A DNA stretch of 64,000 nt, taken from assembly GCF_918797525.1 (NCBI RefSeq), contig NZ_OU963893.1:2480001-2544000 (forward strand). The letters run 5' to 3'. The stretch is from an unidentified bacterial endosymbiont (GTDB taxonomy: Bacteria; Pseudomonadota; Gammaproteobacteria; Enterobacterales; Enterobacteriaceae). Position numbers and translations under genes: made by a program. Below are positions 54,393-61,906 of the stretch, one piece after another; within the stretch, counting starts at the first letter, position 1, and each line of letters starts with the position of its first letter. Under the pieces are notes generated by a model. It was not told the DNA's origin. It saw only the letters and a program-made list of their open reading frames with translations, and did no database searches.

Positions 54393-54519
54393 TGTTTCTG
54401 TGTTGCGGTAATTACTCTTCAGCTCCTCTATACTACTCCCCGACCGCACCCGCAACACCGGCCAGAAAGATGACAAACAGCGGTGTCAGGGACGGATCTT
54501 CAAAAAAAGAGTGAGTGAC

Positions 54520-56218
54520 ATGGACAACAAACTGAAAAAACATCGTTCCTTATATATTCCGTACGCCGGACCGGTTTTACTTGAATTCCCCCTCCTGAAC
54601 AAAGGCAGCGCCTTTAGTATGGAAGAGCGCAGCAGCTTTAACCTGCTGGGCCTGCTGCCTGAAGTGGTTGAAACCATTGAAGAACAGGCAGAGCGAGCCT
54701 GGATACAATACCAGGGCTTTAAAACCGAAATCGACAAGCATATCTACCTGCGCAACATTCAGGATACCAACGAAACCCTCTTCTACCGCCTGGTGCAAAA
54801 TCATCTCGAAGAGATGATGCCGGTGATTTATACCCCAACCGTTGGCGCGGCCTGCGAGCGTTTCTCCGAGATTTACCGTCGCTCCCGGGGCGTATTCATC
54901 TCTTATCAGAACCGCCATAACATGGATGACATTCTGCAGAATGTCTCTAACCACAATATCAAAGTGATCGTCGTCACCGACGGCGAACGTATTTTAGGCC
55001 TCGGCGATCAGGGTATTGGTGGGATGGGCATTCCCATCGGTAAGTTGTCTTTGTATACCGCCTGCGGCGGTATCAGCCCTGCCTACACTCTGCCAGTAGT
55101 GCTCGATGTCGGCACGAACAACCAGCAGCTCCTGACCGACCCGCTGTACATGGGCTGGCGTCATCCACGCATTACTGACGACGAGTATTATCAGTTTGTT
55201 GATGATTTTATCCAGGCTGTAAAACATCGCTGGCCGGACGTTCTGCTGCAGTTTGAAGATTTTGCGCAAAAAAAACGCCATGCCGTTGCTGAACCGCTAT
55301 CGCGATGAGATCTGCTCGTTTAATGATGACATTCAGGGGACTGCGGCTGTGACCGTGGGCACGTTGATTGCGGCCAGTCGCGCTGCGGGCAGCCAGTTGA
55401 GCTACCAGAAAATTGTCTTTCTCGGCGCGGGTTCTGCAGGCTGTGGCATTGCCGAGCAAATCATCGCCCAGACCCAGCGCGAAGGCCTGAGCGAAGAGCT
55501 GGCGCGCTCGCGCGTGTTTATGGTTGACCGCTTTGGTCTGCTGACCGACGCCATGCCGAACCTGCTGCCGTTCCAGACCAAACTGGTGCAAAAGCGCGAG
55601 AGCCTTAAAAACTGGGATACCGACAATGACGTGCTCTCCCTGCTGGATGTGGTGCGCAACGTCAAGCCGGATATCCTGATCGGGGTGTCAGGACAAACCG
55701 GTCTCTTCACCGAGGAGATCATTCGTGAGATGCATAAATACTGCGAACGTCCTATCGTGATGCCGCTGTCTAACCCAACCTCGCGCGTGGAAGCCACGCC
55801 TCAGGACATCATTGCCTGGACGGAAGGCAACGCCCTGGTTGCAACCGGCAGTCCGTTTGATCCGGTGGTGTGGAAAGACAAGCTCTACCCAATTGCCCAG
55901 TGCAACAACTCCTATATCTTCCCGGGAATTGGTCTGGGTGTTATCGCATCGGGCGCATCGCGTATCACCGACGAAATGTTGATGTCCGCGAGTGAGACGC
56001 TGGCGGGCCACTCTCCGCTGGTCAACGATGGCGAAGGCCTGGTGCTGCCGGAGCTGAAAGATATTCAGAAAGTGTCCCGCGCTATCGCCTTTGCGGTAGG
56101 TAAAATGGCGCAGCAGCAAGGTGTGGCGGTGAATACCTCTGCCGATGCATTGCAGCAGGCCATTGACGACAACTACTGGATGCCGGAATACCGTAACTAT
56201 CGTCGGACGTCAATTTAA
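54520..56218 (+). pseudogene. maeA: maeA (NAD-dependent malic enzyme), single-base frameshift
   Basis: Two frames together match E. coli MaeA (SfcA, 565 residues). The first, from ATG 54520, ends at 55308 shortly after Phe-Glu-Asp-Phe-Ala-Gln-Lys; the second carries on from Asn-Ala-Met-Pro-Leu to 56218. The break is the A8 run at 55268-55275: seven A residues restore 565 residues exactly. The N-terminal part has Tyr-Thr-Pro-Thr-Val-Gly, the C-terminal part the NAD-binding Gly-Ala-Gly-Ser-Ala-Gly. It decarboxylates malate to pyruvate. Apart from one base it looks intact, and A8 is a typical slippage or sequencing-error site. Confidence 0.93.
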
Positions 56219-56259: not shown

Positions 56260-58194
56260 CTAGATGAAACTGAGAAAATAAGTCTCTGCGTGATTAACCG
56301 TAACCCGAATGCCACCCTCCTCGTTTTTTACGTCAATATCATTGAGACCGGAGAAATCCGTCACGGTAACGTGAACAACGCGTTTATCCTCAGAGCGCAT
56401 AATCAGGTATTCAACGTCAGAGGTTGAGGGATTATCAGGCCCCTTGCCCTGAAAGAGTTGGGTCTCTCCCGGCGACCAGGACCAGGTACAAAATCGCCCC
56501 GTGCCGTACCAGGTATGTTTAATCACACCGTGCACGGCTTCGGCGTCTCCCACCACTATTCCGGGATGTAATCTTTTATCATACGTTCTCTGAATGGCCG
56601 GCTGGGCGTCAATAAGATATGACGTATCTACTGTCTGTCCATGCGGGTTATCGACAACTCGCATATCCATCAGCAGGTCATTTACAACGCTGATTGAACG
56701 ACGAAATACGATATCTTGATATGCCGCCTCATCCCATTCCACCCGCGTCTTGCTGTCCGGCAGGACAGAGGCCGCTCTCCAGTCCACCTCGACAATCAGC
56801 CGCGTTAATGCATCATCGCGGAAGAAAGAGAGCACCCGCGGTATCGCTGGCGGCTGGTTTTTACCCTGCACGCACAGCGTATTGTGTGAATACGTATTTT
56901 TGTAATAACCATAATGCAGCGGTGCGCCATAGCCTGTAGTGCCGAGATCCGGGAAGACAGCGTGGCCGTCATGGAACACGCTCAACGCCAGGCTATCGTA
57001 GTGATCGTGTTCCCCACCGTAAGGCGTGTGCTTGACGCAAATAGCACGACCTGGCTTATTACGAATAATGGTTATGCCGCTCCTGGGGTCATGTTGCGTA
57101 CCCTGCGGCGGCTCCAGAACATTGTCCGGCAAGGGCTGGCGATAAAACAGCGCGTCGACGCTATCCCGTTGTTGTTTTTCATAAATCAGGTTGAGCAATT
57201 GACCATACCGTTCATCTCCGTAAATCCACCAGGCGAACTCATAGACATCAGCATGATTCAGCTTTTCCTGCCCGTTGACGCAGTCGTTTATTTTCGGCAA
57301 CGTCATATCCGGCATCATCATTTGCAAAGGGATGTTCAGCATCCGCCGGTAATAAGGCTTGTCCAGCAGGCTGTAATCACTCCCGCACGCGAGTTTCTCA
57401 AAGGCAAAGAATCCCTGTAGCGCATAAAAGTGATAGTGAAACGAACCTTCAAACCATAGTCCGTCCGGCAGCAGCGCGTGTTCGAGCTGATACGCGAGAC
57501 CGTATTGGCCCTTTACGGCGAACTCAAGATAGCCATCGTCTTCCAGAACCGCCCCGATAATCGCGATAGCGGCATTAATTTTCACTTCGTGATTGTGGAT
57601 TTGATTGCAGCGGTGGGCGATCAGGAAATCGGCCCCCGTACGCAGCAGCCTTTCGGCAATATACGCCTGCTCAGCCGTGCTTAAAGCAGACCGAATGATA
57701 TCGAAACCACGGGCAAAATCGGTATGACAATTGGCTTCGCACAGCGTCTGCGCATTGGCTTTTCCTGGCCCGTTGTAGGGAATGCCACCGTGCTCCTCGT
57801 AGTCGGGGTAATAACGGGCATAGCCCAGTAGGATCTCCCGCACTTTGTTTAAATAGCGTACGTCCTCAGTCAAAAGCCAGAGGATCCCCAGCTCATAACT
57901 CGCCCTGGCGTTAAGGCCATTGAGCCAGCGCCACCAGGCGCCGTCGTAAGGCTCTCCGGTAAAAATTGCGCCGTCCTGCGGGCAGATATGCTGATGCGGC
58001 GAATGGCGATCCCACCTCAGACGTACGCTGTGGACCGGACAAAAAAAGTAGTGATTCCACGTGGCGCAACCAGTTTGCGGTACCAACACCGGGTGATGAA
58101 TCACCTCCGCGTTATTCTCTATTAATGCCTGGATGATGGCGGGTGTAGCATGTTGCCGCGCCTGACGTACCTGAAGCTCGGTAAATTGTTTCAT
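56260..58194 (-). CDS. Heparinase II/III-family polysaccharide lyase, cytoplasmic
   Basis: 644 residues from ATG 58194 (GGAG upstream; earlier in-frame codons lie in the preceding gene). An alpha-toroid domain (residues 40-350, with Asn-His-Glu-Val-Lys and His-Tyr-His-Phe-Tyr) is followed by a beta-sandwich with Gly-Gly-Glu-His-Asp-His-Tyr-Asp-Ser-Leu and Tyr-Ser-His-Asn-Thr-Leu, the heparinase II/III (PL12/15/17/21) signature. No signal peptide, so it probably acts as an exo-lyase on imported oligosaccharides, releasing unsaturated uronate. Last gene of the four-gene operon, starting 10 bases after its neighbour. Confidence 0.87.
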   Translation of the reverse strand: MKQFTELQVRQARQHATPAIIQALIENNAEVIHHPVLVPQTGCATWNHYFFCPVHSVRLRWDRHSPHQHICPQDGAIFTGEPYDGAWWRWLNGLNARASYELGILWLLTEDVRYLNKVREILLGYARYYPDYEEHGGIPYNGPGKANAQTLCEANCHTDFARGFDIIRSALSTAEQAYIAERLLRTGADFLIAHRCNQIHNHEVKINAAIAIIGAVLEDDGYLEFAVKGQYGLAYQLEHALLPDGLWFEGSFHYHFYALQGFFAFEKLACGSDYSLLDKPYYRRMLNIPLQMMMPDMTLPKINDCVNGQEKLNHADVYEFAWWIYGDERYGQLLNLIYEKQQRDSVDALFYRQPLPDNVLEPPQGTQHDPRSGITIIRNKPGRAICVKHTPYGGEHDHYDSLALSVFHDGHAVFPDLGTTGYGAPLHYGYYKNTYSHNTLCVQGKNQPPAIPRVLSFFRDDALTRLIVEVDWRAASVLPDSKTRVEWDEAAYQDIVFRRSISVVNDLLMDMRVVDNPHGQTVDTSYLIDAQPAIQRTYDKRLHPGIVVGDAEAVHGVIKHTWYGTGRFCTWSWSPGETQLFQGKGPDNPSTSDVEYLIMRSEDKRVVHVTVTDFSGLNDIDVKNEEGGIRVTVNHAETYFLSFI

Positions 58195-58204
58195 GTTTGC
58201 TCCG

Positions 58205-59431
58205 TTATTTAACCAGCACAGAACCGGGGAGAAGGATATTGATATCCCGACTGTTCGACGCGACAAGCCGTTCGGCGCTACGCAAAAACGTCGGTTCCTG
58301 CCACGCTCGCGCTGCCGCCAGCATGGGGCCAGTCGCCTCTCGTGGCGTATAGTGAATATCTTCATAGGGCCAGTCGGTGCGCGGCTTTCCTGTTTGTCGA
58401 CTCACCACCCCGAACGCTTTTTTCATGGTTCGACCGTCCAGCCCGAAGCCCCAGACATCGTTCCCGAGCGTTTCACCGTAGCGCCCCATGTGGGCATAGG
58501 CCGCAAGCGCAAAGTTGGTATAGTGAAATGAGCGGGTTCGTTCTGTCTCAGAGGTTATTTCTCCCCGGGCGTTTACCTGAGAGGCAAGATGGCGCAATTT
58601 GAAAATGTCCGTTTGTTTTTGCGCCTGCTGCACGTTGCCGGTAAAGAGCGAGAACGCGGTCACCTGCGCGTCATACCAGGCGCCATGATTGTTATACCAG
58701 TTCGCTTCTTCAAACCCGTTTTGGCTGGTCAGTAACCAGCGCGTGTAGTCGGCATACCATTTTTTGTAGCCGCTCAGCGCCTGAGGGCTAATCAGGCCAG
58801 AGGGTTCCAGCAGGACAATGCTGTCCGCCACGTCAATTAATACCCGGGTATCAATAATGCCGATTCCGCGTCCGTCTACCTGCCCCGGAATGGCCTGAGC
58901 ATATTTCAGGTTAGGGTTCATGCGGGTTGTGCGGTTTAAAAACCAGGTGTCCAACAGGTTTACCGCTTTGGCGGCGTATTTCTGGTCAGGTTGATAAAAC
59001 CACCTCAGGGCAAGCAGGCGGAGATCGTCAGCAAACTGGACCAGCCGTTTACTGTCGGTAGCATTGGTTTTAGCATCGGGATTAATTTGCCCGTCTTTGC
59101 GCACGTAAGGCATCCCGTTTTTCCCCACCGGGTTGGGCCACCAGTAAGGTCCAAAACTGTAATAATCATGTTTATCTCCCGAGGCCGGGGTCAGTGTTTT
59201 ATCCGTGACTGAATAGTTGGGGTGCGACAGCGCAGTTTCCGCATCACGTAACAAAGCCTGCCAGGCGGGTAAATAACGAGGATCCTGACGCGCAATGGCC
59301 TCTTTAATCGCCTCCATCCGGGCACAATCATAGGTCAGACAAGCATCATAATGCCGAGCAGCGAACGCTGATGACTGCGCAAACAATGCACAGCCAACAA
59401 CAGATGCCAGTAATGAACGGCTCCATTTCAT
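58205..59431 (-). CDS. Alginate lyase-family (PF05426) periplasmic lyase
   Basis: 408 residues from ATG 59431, which starts a signal peptide (Ser-Ser-Ala-Phe-Ala-Ala). The alpha/alpha-barrel motifs of the family are present: Gly-Pro-Tyr-Trp-Trp-Pro-Asn-Pro, Asn-Trp-Tyr-Asn-Asn-His-Gly-Ala-Trp (catalytic Asn-Asn-His) and Arg-Ser-Phe-His-Tyr-Thr-Asn-Phe-Ala-Leu (Tyr acid/base). It should cut a uronic acid polymer by beta-elimination in the periplasm. Substrate could be alginate or another uronan. It lies 13 bases after kdgM. Confidence 0.87.
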   Translation of the reverse strand: MKWSRSLLASVVGCALFAQSSAFAARHYDACLTYDCARMEAIKEAIARQDPRYLPAWQALLRDAETALSHPNYSVTDKTLTPASGDKHDYYSFGPYWWPNPVGKNGMPYVRKDGQINPDAKTNATDSKRLVQFADDLRLLALRWFYQPDQKYAAKAVNLLDTWFLNRTTRMNPNLKYAQAIPGQVDGRGIGIIDTRVLIDVADSIVLLEPSGLISPQALSGYKKWYADYTRWLLTSQNGFEEANWYNNHGAWYDAQVTAFSLFTGNVQQAQKQTDIFKLRHLASQVNARGEITSETERTRSFHYTNFALAAYAHMGRYGETLGNDVWGFGLDGRTMKKAFGVVSRQTGKPRTDWPYEDIHYTPREATGPMLAAARAWQEPTFLRSAERLVASNSRDINILLPGSVLVK

Positions 59432-59444
59432 GGCGTAAATTTCC

Positions 59445-60140
59445 TTATCCAAAATTGATTGAGAGACCCACGCGGAAGCGGTTTTCGGTTAAGCCTGCTT
59501 CGCCATCATATTTACCCTGCTGGCCCATATAGTCCCATTCGACGTAAGGCTGCCAGGTTTTGTTGAGCTTATAACGGATCACTAAGTCATTCTCCCAGGC
59601 GTTCTTTTTGCCGTTATTAAAATGGAAGTCGTTTACGTAGCGATAAAATACCGGATTATCCTGGATATCCCAGCGGTTGTTACGCCAGCCGAGGTAAAGA
59701 TCCAGTCGCGCCTGACTCCCTTTAGTGCGTTCGCCGGACAGGTCGCTTGAATCATATTGATTCCAGTCATAGCGCATGCGGATTGCCGAATAGAGGGACG
59801 GCGTCATATTCCAGCCAAATTTCACATACGGCCGGACCTGTGCCCCTTCGCTACCCCAGTGGTAAACCATTCCCGGCTGGATAAAGACGCTGTCATTGGG
59901 TTTATATTTATAATTCCCTTCCAGCTCGTTGTAATCCGTAGTGGATTGATCAAAATTATCCCCGCCCTGCTTATTATCGGTCTCCATACTGAGCCAGAAG
60001 GCATCCAGCGTTTGGCTCATCTTGAAGCGTGACTCATAGGTTTTACTGGCTGCTTTATATCCACCACGCATATCAAAGGTAACCGCGTGGCTGACCAGTG
60101 GGCAGCAGCAGGCCGCCAGCAATAAAGCCGTTTTTTTCAT
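59445..60140 (-). CDS. KdgM-family oligouronide outer-membrane porin
   Basis: 231 residues: signal peptide (cleaved after Ser-His-Ala) and alternating beta-strands of a 12-strand monomeric barrel, ending in Ile-Asn-Phe-Gly. Relatives KdgM and KdgN import oligogalacturonides, and NanC sialic acid. It starts 24 bases after the MFS gene and is flanked by two uronan lyases, so it is the outer-membrane entry step of this pathway. Confidence 0.92.
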   Translation of the reverse strand: MKKTALLLAACCCPLVSHAVTFDMRGGYKAASKTYESRFKMSQTLDAFWLSMETDNKQGGDNFDQSTTDYNELEGNYKYKPNDSVFIQPGMVYHWGSEGAQVRPYVKFGWNMTPSLYSAIRMRYDWNQYDSSDLSGERTKGSQARLDLYLGWRNNRWDIQDNPVFYRYVNDFHFNNGKKNAWENDLVIRYKLNKTWQPYVEWDYMGQQGKYDGEAGLTENRFRVGLSINFG

Positions 60141-60164
60141 GGAAGTGTCCTTAGCGGATTAAAA

Positions 60165-61421
60165 TTATGCTGTCGCCAGCGTTTGCGTTTTTTTAGGGGA
60201 TTTAATTAATGCCCAAAGGAACAGCGCGCCGATTAAGTCGAACACGCCCAGGCCAACGAAGAAAGCGTTGTAGCCGATAACCATCACCGACGCGCCAAGG
60301 AACAGGCCGAAGAGGAAATTACCCATACTGCCGGTGAAGGCAGCAAAGCCCGTCGCGGTGGCGACTTCTCTTTTAGGAAACAGATCGGAAGACATACTGA
60401 TAACGGTGATGGAGAGACACTGGTGAGCGAAACCCGCAATACAGAACAGCGCCAGCGCGGCATAAACGTTGGTGACAAACCCCACGCCCGCCATCGACAA
60501 CATCAGTATTGCGGCAAAGGTAAAGGTGATGCGTTTGGCATTCAGGACGCCAATACCGCGATTGACCAGCACGCGTGAGAGATAGCCTGCGAACATGCAG
60601 CCAAAATCAGCCGTCAGGAACGGTAACCACGCATACATAGCAATGTGAGCCATATCCATATGGCGGACCGTCACAAGATACAGTGGCATCCAGTAATGCA
60701 GGGTTCCCCACGCGGGATCGGCCATAAAACGCGGAAGCGAAATGGCCCACAGGTTGCGGTCCGTGATTATTGAGCGCAGCGACGCTTTTTCTTTTACGAC
60801 CTCAATCTGATCGTCCTGCACGGCAGCGTATTCCGCTGGGATGAGCGCACCGTTTCGTTCAGGAGAACGATAGAAAATATACCACACCAGCGCCCAGACC
60901 AGCCCCAGCGCGCCGGTCACCACAAACGACATTTCCCAGTTGTAATTGACAACCGCCCACACCACCAACGGCGGCGCCAGCATTGCCCCAACGGAGGTGC
61001 CGAGGCTGTAAATACCGCAGGCCAGGCCCCGCTCTTTCGCCGGGAACCATTCAGCGGTCACCTTCATCCCGGCCGGATTAAAGGCGGCTTCGGTCAATCC
61101 CAGCCCGCCGCGCAGCCAGGCCATCGGCAACCAGCTACTGCATAACCCCGTCAACATGTTGAAGATGGACCATAACGCCGCCAGCAGGGCGAAACTGAGG
61201 CGTAGCCCAAACCGGTCGATGATGAAACCACACACAATACCGCCAATCGCGTAGGTGAACGGGAAGACGGAGACTATCCAGCCATATTGCTCACTGGATA
61301 ATCCGAGGGTTTTCATCATTTCAGGTGCGGCAACGCCAAGCGTACTTCTTGCCAGATAATTGGTAACGGTTCCCAGCATCACAAGAACGATGATGTACCA
61401 TCTTAAATTTTTAATTTTCAT
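60165..61421 (-). CDS. MFS transporter, anion:cation symporter (hexuronate-type)
   Basis: 418 residues from ATG 61421, twelve hydrophobic helices. The opening Arg-Trp-Tyr-Ile-Ile-Val-Leu-Val-Met-Leu-Gly-Thr-Val-Thr-Asn-Tyr-Leu-Ala-Arg and the Gly-Leu-Thr-Glu-Ala-Ala-Phe-Asn-Pro-Ala segment are those of the ACS family (ExuT, D-galactonate and oligouronide carriers). The usual Asp in Asn-Tyr-Leu-Asp-Arg is Ala. First gene of the MFS-kdgM-lyase-lyase operon, placing it as the inner-membrane importer of short uronides. Promoter has CRP- and KdgR-like sites. Confidence 0.9.
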   Translation of the reverse strand: MKIKNLRWYIIVLVMLGTVTNYLARSTLGVAAPEMMKTLGLSSEQYGWIVSVFPFTYAIGGIVCGFIIDRFGLRLSFALLAALWSIFNMLTGLCSSWLPMAWLRGGLGLTEAAFNPAGMKVTAEWFPAKERGLACGIYSLGTSVGAMLAPPLVVWAVVNYNWEMSFVVTGALGLVWALVWYIFYRSPERNGALIPAEYAAVQDDQIEVVKEKASLRSIITDRNLWAISLPRFMADPAWGTLHYWMPLYLVTVRHMDMAHIAMYAWLPFLTADFGCMFAGYLSRVLVNRGIGVLNAKRITFTFAAILMLSMAGVGFVTNVYAALALFCIAGFAHQCLSITVISMSSDLFPKREVATATGFAAFTGSMGNFLFGLFLGASVMVIGYNAFFVGLGVFDLIGALFLWALIKSPKKTQTLATA

Positions 61422-61471
61422 AAATATTCCCACGTTAATTAACAATCAATGTAAAACACCATACCCAATAA

Positions 61472-61536
61472 AATGAAACAGTGTTTCGTACATATGAGAA
61501 TCAAAAATTAATATTAAATCCGTGAAGTTTTTCACA
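61472..61536 (-). promoter_or_regulatory. Promoter of the uronide operon with KdgR- and CRP-like sites
   Basis: A KdgR-like box AATGAAACAGTGTTTCGTA lies at 61472-61490 and a CRP-like site CGTGAAGTTTTTCACA at 61521-61536. Between them on the minus strand are TTAATA and TATGTA, 17 bases apart (-10 at 61489-61494). The CRP site would be centred about 40-47 bases upstream of transcription, and the KdgR box overlaps the -10 end and start, a repressing position. Good matches by eye, not tested. Confidence 0.6.
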
Positions 61537-61906
61537 AATACAATGGATGACACATTGTGGCAATAATTTTTGTGTATGCGGAAATGAACGACTTGCTCGA
61601 ATTTCACAAAGCTTTTCATTGGGTTACACTTCACCGCGCACGAGAAATATTATAAATTGTCGTTAAAAAATAATACCACCCGCACATGCTAATGAATAAA
61701 GTAACAACACCATTTAACAACTATTAATATTATTCATGAGAGTGGCCTTACTCTATTTTGGTCATAAATATTCATCATTTTTGTAAAAATGAATCCTTTC
61801 ATTCCTTGCGCTCTGGCGCAAAAAAACTAATACTTAAGAAGTAAGACCTATTCTCATCCACGCCCTACCTGCTCTGCAGATTCCGATCGTGAACAAGGAG
61901 ATAAAC
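61537..61906. other. Divergent intergenic region upstream of adhP
   Basis: AT-rich with no gene. An inverted repeat TCATTTTT-GT-AAAAATGA at 61775-61792 lies about 115 bases before adhP and may be a regulator site. AAGGAG at 61895-61900 is the adhP ribosome binding site. Confidence 0.5.

Follow-up and report, generated by a model that had tools for sequence, protein, structure and literature searches.

KdgR is known as the repressor of pectin breakdown. In the KdgR-controlled oligogalacturonide systems of Dickeya and Yersinia, which comprise KdgM, Ogl and KduI/KduD, a KdgM porin and a KdgR operator are combined with enzymes whose products lead to 2-keto-3-deoxygluconate (KDG). Likewise, a KdgM porin, a predicted KdgR operator and a predicted route to KDG belong to an operon (piece 56260-61536) in a 64,000-nt stretch of contig NZ_OU963893.1 from an enterobacterial endosymbiont, hereafter called the window. 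This operon, however, encodes no pectin lyases but lyases of polysaccharide lyase family 38 (PL38) and of a PL17-like type, together with an ExuT-like carrier of the major facilitator superfamily (MFS).

Among the described PL38 enzymes, Brevundimonas CUL-I and Trichoderma TpPL38A are named endo-glucuronan lyases (PMC9029943, PMC13027841) and share their family with the window's periplasmic lyase. PL38 and PL17-type lyases together with KdgF and an MFS carrier are also described for the alginate polysaccharide utilization locus of Bacteroides ovatus CP926 (BoPL6, BoPL17, BoPL38; PDB 8bdd, 8bdq; PMC11381880). That locus differs in having a PL6 enzyme too and Bacteroides-type uptake, and its BoPL17 (8bdd) is of the alginate type, in contrast to the cytoplasmic lyase of the window. 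Searches of an open-access library gave no description of the operon; a 2004 comparative-genomics paper on KdgR lies outside that scope, and an earlier mention is therefore possible. On balance, we consider it somewhat more likely than not, from sequence comparison, that the operon is repressed by KdgR, is activated by CRP and serves growth on a linear uronan, with beta-1,4-glucuronan as the most likely one.

Gene content, promoter and downstream pathway

All four genes are found on the minus strand, in the order MFS carrier, KdgM porin, PF05426 lyase and heparinase II/III-type lyase, and transcription is directed away from adhP. Pfam matches (Table 1) bear out this composition as given in the first-pass annotation; the operon is real and the earlier reading largely correct. 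The gene starts were revised. For the heparinase-type gene position 58194 replaces 58365, because relatives align from residue 1 of the shorter product; the upstream start would also overlap the preceding gene. The starts of the PF05426 and MFS genes were corrected to 59431 and 61421. The carrier is 42.6% identical to K-12 ExuT over 418 aligned positions (with the last residues of ExuT cut off) and reaches 290 bits on TIGR00893, under the cut-off of 395; the porin scores above the threshold of its family. The G+C content of the operon genes (49-54%) is like that of the window (52%).

A KdgR-like box and a CRP-like site had been assigned to the promoter, and both predicted sites stand. The exact box GAAACANTGTTTC is found at two places in the 4.76 Mb genome and the reversed pattern at none; the 13-mer GAAACACTGTTTC, identical to the operon box, lies upstream of kduI in K-12. 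The spacing was taken from centre to centre between the best CRP match and the best KdgR match in 20 distinct homologous upstream regions, with L009 (contig end) as well as L014 and L166 (no MFS gene) left out; L and G numbers denote loci and genomes. It is 47.5 bp in nine of the 20 regions and 45.5-46.5 bp in five, i.e. 45.5-47.5 bp in 14. When the bases of all 20 regions were shuffled in 400 rounds, with kinship ignored, this count had a mean of 0.27 and a maximum of 3. KdgR matches with at most two mismatches occur in nine of the 20 regions, compared with a shuffle mean of 0.18 (maximum 2). Homologous promoters share descent and thus do not count as independent cases, which shuffling leaves uncorrected. 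A chance origin of the sites was rejected on account of the two exact boxes versus none for the reversed control and of the spacing versus the shuffles.

If the -10 element is a hexamer 30-35 bases past the CRP centre, CRP would be located at class II distance and KdgR over +1. This geometry fits TCTCAT, yet the offset profile over the 14 promoters has several near-equal peaks. The sites and their conserved spacing are read from the sequence, and binding by KdgR and CRP is presumed from them. The other exact KdgR box in the genome (L049 1501-1513; G000 412258) precedes a CSS-motif/EAL (cyclic-di-GMP phosphodiesterase-type) open reading frame (ORF) by about 450 bases.

The KDG pathway, which the product had been expected to enter, is encoded in the same genome; kdgR, kdgK and eda are all present. 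Identities to the K-12 proteins are 95% for KdgR, 94% for KduI, 92% each for KduD, UxaC and Eda, and 86% for KdgK, and the UxaC and Eda frames are open to their natural ends. A separate pectin cluster at about 1.08-1.10 Mb contains KduI, KduD, a KdgM porin (213 bits), an oligogalacturonate lyase (669 bits) and a KdgF-like cupin, which is 79% identical to the KdgF-like protein of L009. Thus, gene content, conserved promoter layout and KDG pathway genes support the earlier prediction that the operon serves to take up and cleave uronides and is controlled by KdgR and CRP.

We propose that KdgM lets oligouronides into the periplasm, where the PL38 lyase would convert them by beta-elimination to short unsaturated oligomers. 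The shortest of these would be imported by the ExuT-like MFS carrier, and the cytoplasmic heparinase II/III-type lyase would free 4,5-unsaturated monouronate and the final saturated glucuronate. KdgF-like, KduI and KduD proteins may then convert the unsaturated unit to KDG, while UxaC would open a route for the saturated glucuronate and KdgK and Eda would finish KDG. Since KDG lifts KdgR, the pathway product would presumably induce the operon, and CRP would add control by preferred sugars. The genes, the PL38 active-site residues, the KDG pathway and the pairing of the lyases are read from the sequence; the polymer, the direction of transport and the exo action of the cytoplasmic lyase are our interpretation.

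The two lyases

The PF05426 domain covers residues 74-351 of the periplasmic lyase, which is the larger part of the mature protein. Among solved structures, PDB 3nfv (E=8e-76) is closest to this lyase, followed by 8bdq (E=1e-41), whose sequence is identical to 9fhu, named BoPL38 in PMC12448869. The catalytic bases of BoPL38 are H243 and Y298 according to PMC13169297, and chain positions 243 and 298 of 8bdq are indeed His and Tyr. N248, H249, R298 and Y304 of the periplasmic lyase align to N242, H243, R292 and Y298 of BoPL38. The protein thus fits family PL38 with four predicted active-site residues retained. As members of this family PMC13027841 lists two alginate lyases, two glucuronan lyases and one hyaluronan/chondroitin lyase; for CUL-I, PMC9029943 describes cleavage of glucuronan but not of alginate.

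The nearest solved structures of the cytoplasmic lyase are PL17 alginate lyases, also with a 14-sequence profile. It shares its superfamily with the PL17 oligoalginate lyases (Alg17C, AlgL17, VaAly17A/B), and the Asn-His pair, Tyr254, His396/His398 and the HN motif align. In an alignment of 21 window-type and 11 alginate-type sequences, N201, H202 and Y254 (N201, H202 and Y258 in Alg17C, i.e. the Asn-His neutralisers and the acid Tyr) are present in all 21 window-type sequences. The HN motif is common to both types. The His pair of Alg17C is matched by H396 and H398; two of the 11 alginate-type rows have no second His. In contrast, mean identity between the groups is 19% (highest 23%), compared with 53% and 57% within them, and the window's lyase lacks the loop that bears Tyr450 in Alg17C.

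On the oligoalginate lyase model NF042990 the cytoplasmic lyase reaches 87 bits against a cut-off of 1400; alginate-type PL17s of Vibrio and Neiella (453-834 bits) are also below this cut-off, and in the 11 genomes searched (eight marine, three enterobacterial) no match exceeds it. In six of the eight marine genomes, the alginate-type PL17s occupy sites apart from the window-type gene (63-81 bits), in three of them as tandem pairs. Only the window type was found with this model in the two other marine genomes (Vibrio plantisponsor, Aliagarivorans) and in the three enterobacterial ones. The marine PL17s are taken as alginate enzymes because of their scores and because alginate-degrading Vibrio carry such a tandem pair (PMC12336832). 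By sequence the cytoplasmic lyase is nearest to PL17 but belongs to a separate clade, and we do not file it as PL17. We found no characterised member of this clade in the open-access literature.

The pairing of the two lyases was read in the 29 loci that rank directly below the window's own by score, taken from a family sample of 392 Enterobacteriaceae genomes. A heparinase-type gene adjoins PL38 in 28 of them, and in the remaining one the contig ends there. In seven of the eight marine genomes a window-type lyase is found at most 10 kb from PL38. The pair occurs beside an ExuT-like MFS carrier and KdgM porin, as in the window, and in the same cluster as an SSS symporter in Cedecea (L014) and in marine loci. 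Another enterobacterial system, seen in L171 and L172, has the PL38 and heparinase-type pair divergent from an ABC sugar carrier that is accompanied by a second PL38-like gene (Pfam was run on L171 only).

Substrate of the proposed pathway

The first-pass annotation had left the polymer open between alginate, glycosaminoglycan, glucuronan and capsule. The ORFs of nine marine loci (L018-L026, of which L019 and L025 are short) were clustered, and UxaC-like, KdgR-like, KduD-like and KdgF-like proteins are each encoded in six of the nine, an RpiB-like isomerase in five. For one representative of each of the first three clusters, NCBIfam models gave the names glucuronate isomerase, KdgR and KduD with scores above their cut-offs. 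The RpiB-like isomerase is matched to PDB 4u8e, streptococcal DhuI, with E=1.5e-66; its best match is 3ono, a ribose/galactose isomerase. Further genes of L020 code for a 2-keto-3-deoxy-6-phosphogluconate aldolase, a PfkB kinase and an oligogalacturonate lyase, while a periplasmic pectate lyase is encoded in L018. In L009, a metagenome-assembled genome of Pluralibacter, a KdgF-like gene directly follows both lyases (PDB cupin 7zyb, 2e-35; KdgF entries 5fpx, 2e-22, and 5fq0, 6e-17). UxaC acts on glucuronate and galacturonate, and we therefore expect one or the other of them as the saturated unit that is released. Together with the separate PL17s, the marine neighbours narrow the choice: they favour a polymer of glucuronate or galacturonate type, with beta-1,4-glucuronan as the best guess, rather than alginate.

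A beta-helix-type protein is clustered with PL38 in L021, L022, L023, L025 and L026, with weak matches to PF12708 (L023) and PF13229 (L026). For that of Vibrio L023 no solved relative was found at E<=0.01. It is possibly an extracellular lyase of an unfamiliar kind for the same polymer.

The term 'alginate lyase family protein' used in databases would imply that the operon degrades alginate from seaweed or from Pseudomonas/Azotobacter, which appears unlikely to us. In favour of alginate, 3nfv and 8bdq are named alginate lyases, the nearest solved relatives of the cytoplasmic lyase are PL17 alginate lyases, and Aly38A of PL38 cuts alginate (PMC9029943). The plain reading of the database name was nevertheless down-weighted, because in six of the eight marine genomes alginate-type PL17s lie apart from the window-type lyase and in the other two only the window type was found. 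Moreover, the UxaC and KduD neighbours fit the gluco/galacto stereochemistry, and no PL7 lyase was found in the window's genome (14 control genomes gave one match, below cut-off), no search there being aimed at 4-deoxy-L-erythro-5-hexoseulose uronate reductase. About as improbable as alginate is that the operon works beside the genome's own pectin cluster as an accessory pectin system, its substrates being oligogalacturonides or other oligomers that contain galacturonate. The KdgM porin, the KdgR box and the pectin lyases of L018 and L020 agree with it, as does the separate cluster of KdgM, oligogalacturonate lyase, KduI, KduD and KdgF-like cupin. However, we know of no characterised PL38 or PL17 enzyme acting on polygalacturonate, and the genome already has an oligogalacturonate lyase for that job.

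Glycosaminoglycan-like chains of a host or of bacteria (hyaluronan, chondroitin, K5-type capsule) are, if anything, a shade less probable still. None of the four operon genes handles sulfate or an amino sugar, and the marine relatives lie with uronate and pectin genes. In favour of such chains, the heparinase II/III superfamily includes glycosaminoglycan lyases, a DhuI-like isomerase is present in marine loci, and RiPL38 is described as cutting hyaluronan, chondroitin weakly (PMC13027841).

Several observations weigh against a KdgR-controlled glucuronan operon. Nine of the 14 promoters with conserved spacing have a KdgR box with 3-4 mismatches, and in the upstream region of L005 (Atlantibacter) no convincing site was found. 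Other spacings are seen in L008, L165 and the Rahnella-type loci L015, L169 and L170, with a poor CRP match in L008, L169 and L170. A KdgR box with 0-1 mismatch was not found in six of the eight marine loci scanned, and a consensus scan called no sigma-70 promoter at the operon start. The lyases are not always paired: in L024 the cytoplasmic-type lyase is far from PL38, and the more distant PL38 loci L016, L017 and L027-L030 have no window-type partner within their stretches. As PL38 comprises enzymes of several substrates, membership of it leaves the choice of polymer open; galacturonate would suit UxaC, KduD and DhuI too, and two marine loci hold pectin lyases.

Also adverse is that the GGRYxxEN loop occurs in none of the 21 window-type but in all 11 alginate-type sequences, since its Tyr (Y450 in Alg17C) is the catalytic base according to PMC12336832. 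In PMC4765187, a His is argued to be the base instead, and as H398 is kept in the window's lyase, loss of the loop need not mean inactivity. Y428 or Y430 may be a candidate stand-in for the lost Tyr. A Phe-for-His specificity signature at position 208 of Smlt2602, where the H208F change gave exolytic glucuronan activity (PMC4765187), was looked for, but the cytoplasmic lyase has His; the known glucuronan switch is thus not in use. According to the same source glucuronate and mannuronate differ only at C2, and a PL17-like enzyme on glucuronan is therefore chemically reasonable. An exo-type cellouronate lyase is cited in the reference list of that paper, so exo activity on glucuronan would not be without precedent.

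Taken together with glucuronan as the preferred substrate, a wider proposal can be made, which we hold tentatively and rate at somewhat below an even chance. The heparinase II/III-type enzyme would found an undescribed polysaccharide lyase family, namely of cytoplasmic exo-acting oligoglucuronate lyases without the PL17 tyrosine loop. With PL38 it would form a two-enzyme module that Enterobacterales and Vibrionales combine with three carrier types, in Enterobacteriaceae under KdgR. Glucuronan would then serve Enterobacter and Citrobacter relatives, and perhaps also Salmonella houtenae, where only the PL38 protein was seen, as a food not recognised so far. In Enterobacteriaceae, KdgR seems to control a further uronan diet, probably one other than pectin, and many of these proteins may be misnamed by the database term 'alginate lyase'. 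For enzymologists, the partner lyase represents a conserved clade with a testable substrate. Glucuronan is present in fungal walls. Abstracts also name rhizobial exopolysaccharide and green algae as its sources, and it becomes a candidate niche.

Genomic position and distribution

Table 1. Coordinates of the operon genes and of the predicted promoter elements in the window.
Feature	Position	Strand	Remarks
MFS hexuronate-type carrier	60165..61421	-	first gene, 418 aa; MFS_1 196 bits
KdgM-family outer-membrane porin	59445..60140	-	231 aa; signal peptide by inspection; PF06178 122 bits, cut-off 22
Periplasmic PL38-type lyase	58205..59431	-	408 aa; signal peptide by inspection; PF05426 272 bits
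Cytoplasmic heparinase II/III-superfamily lyase	56260..58194	-	644 aa; no signal peptide by inspection; Hepar_II_III_C 56 bits
KdgR operator candidate, exact GAAACANTGTTTC	61475..61487	-	pattern match
CRP-like site TGTGAAAAACTTCACG	61521..61536	-	one mismatch; centre 47.5 bp upstream of KdgR box centre
Possible -10 hexamer TCTCAT	61494..61499	-	weak, inferred from class II distance to CRP centre

PL38 is found at E<=1e-60 in 78 of the 392 family genomes and is at least 60% identical in 14, including the window's own; within the window's genus it is present in six of 61 genomes. Five other members of the genus have PL38; in four of them the porin was read and is divergent (40-43% identical), and the contig of the fifth ends too early for this. 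Likeness to the window's operon is seen instead in Citrobacter, Atlantibacter and Trabulsiella. In relatives the operon is located beside gyrB and a YidA-like gene (Citrobacter) or near sucABCD (several Enterobacter and relatives). Judged by sequence, it was probably acquired horizontally.

In K-12, maeA and adhP are neighbours 133 bp apart, as had been stated, but the junction is not ordinarily closed in the window's genus. A query of the joined flanks matched 61 of 61 genus genomes, a few by one half only, and the interval was measured where both halves are on one contig. The shortest interval is about 0.2 kb (G056) and the longest 8.9 kb (G004); lengths near 2.2 kb are frequent, and the window has 5.7 kb. 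Thus, the site is one of variable content. Of seven intervals that were read (L148-L154), six hold a related gene for an ABC-F-like ATPase (ABC_tran confirmed in three) and that of G056 is empty. This gene is not present in the window's interval.

No match was found in E. coli in near mode. In distant mode (query 58205-61600), the best 20 of 3311 matching genomes show a 222-base resemblance to exuT, and in no genome does a single place match as much as 80% of the query. A protein cluster named after Salmonella enterica subsp. houtenae has 108 member sequences, which occur on 297 contigs. In Trabulsiella odontotermitis (L007) the genes for the carrier and the cytoplasmic-type lyase are split, and in Atlantibacter (L005) that for the cytoplasmic-type lyase; these copies reflect either decay in some hosts or sequencing slips. 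Next to the operon, maeA is split over two frames (54511-55308 and 55253-56218) with the break at a run of eight A (55268-55277), which is either a homopolymer sequencing slip or a real frameshift.

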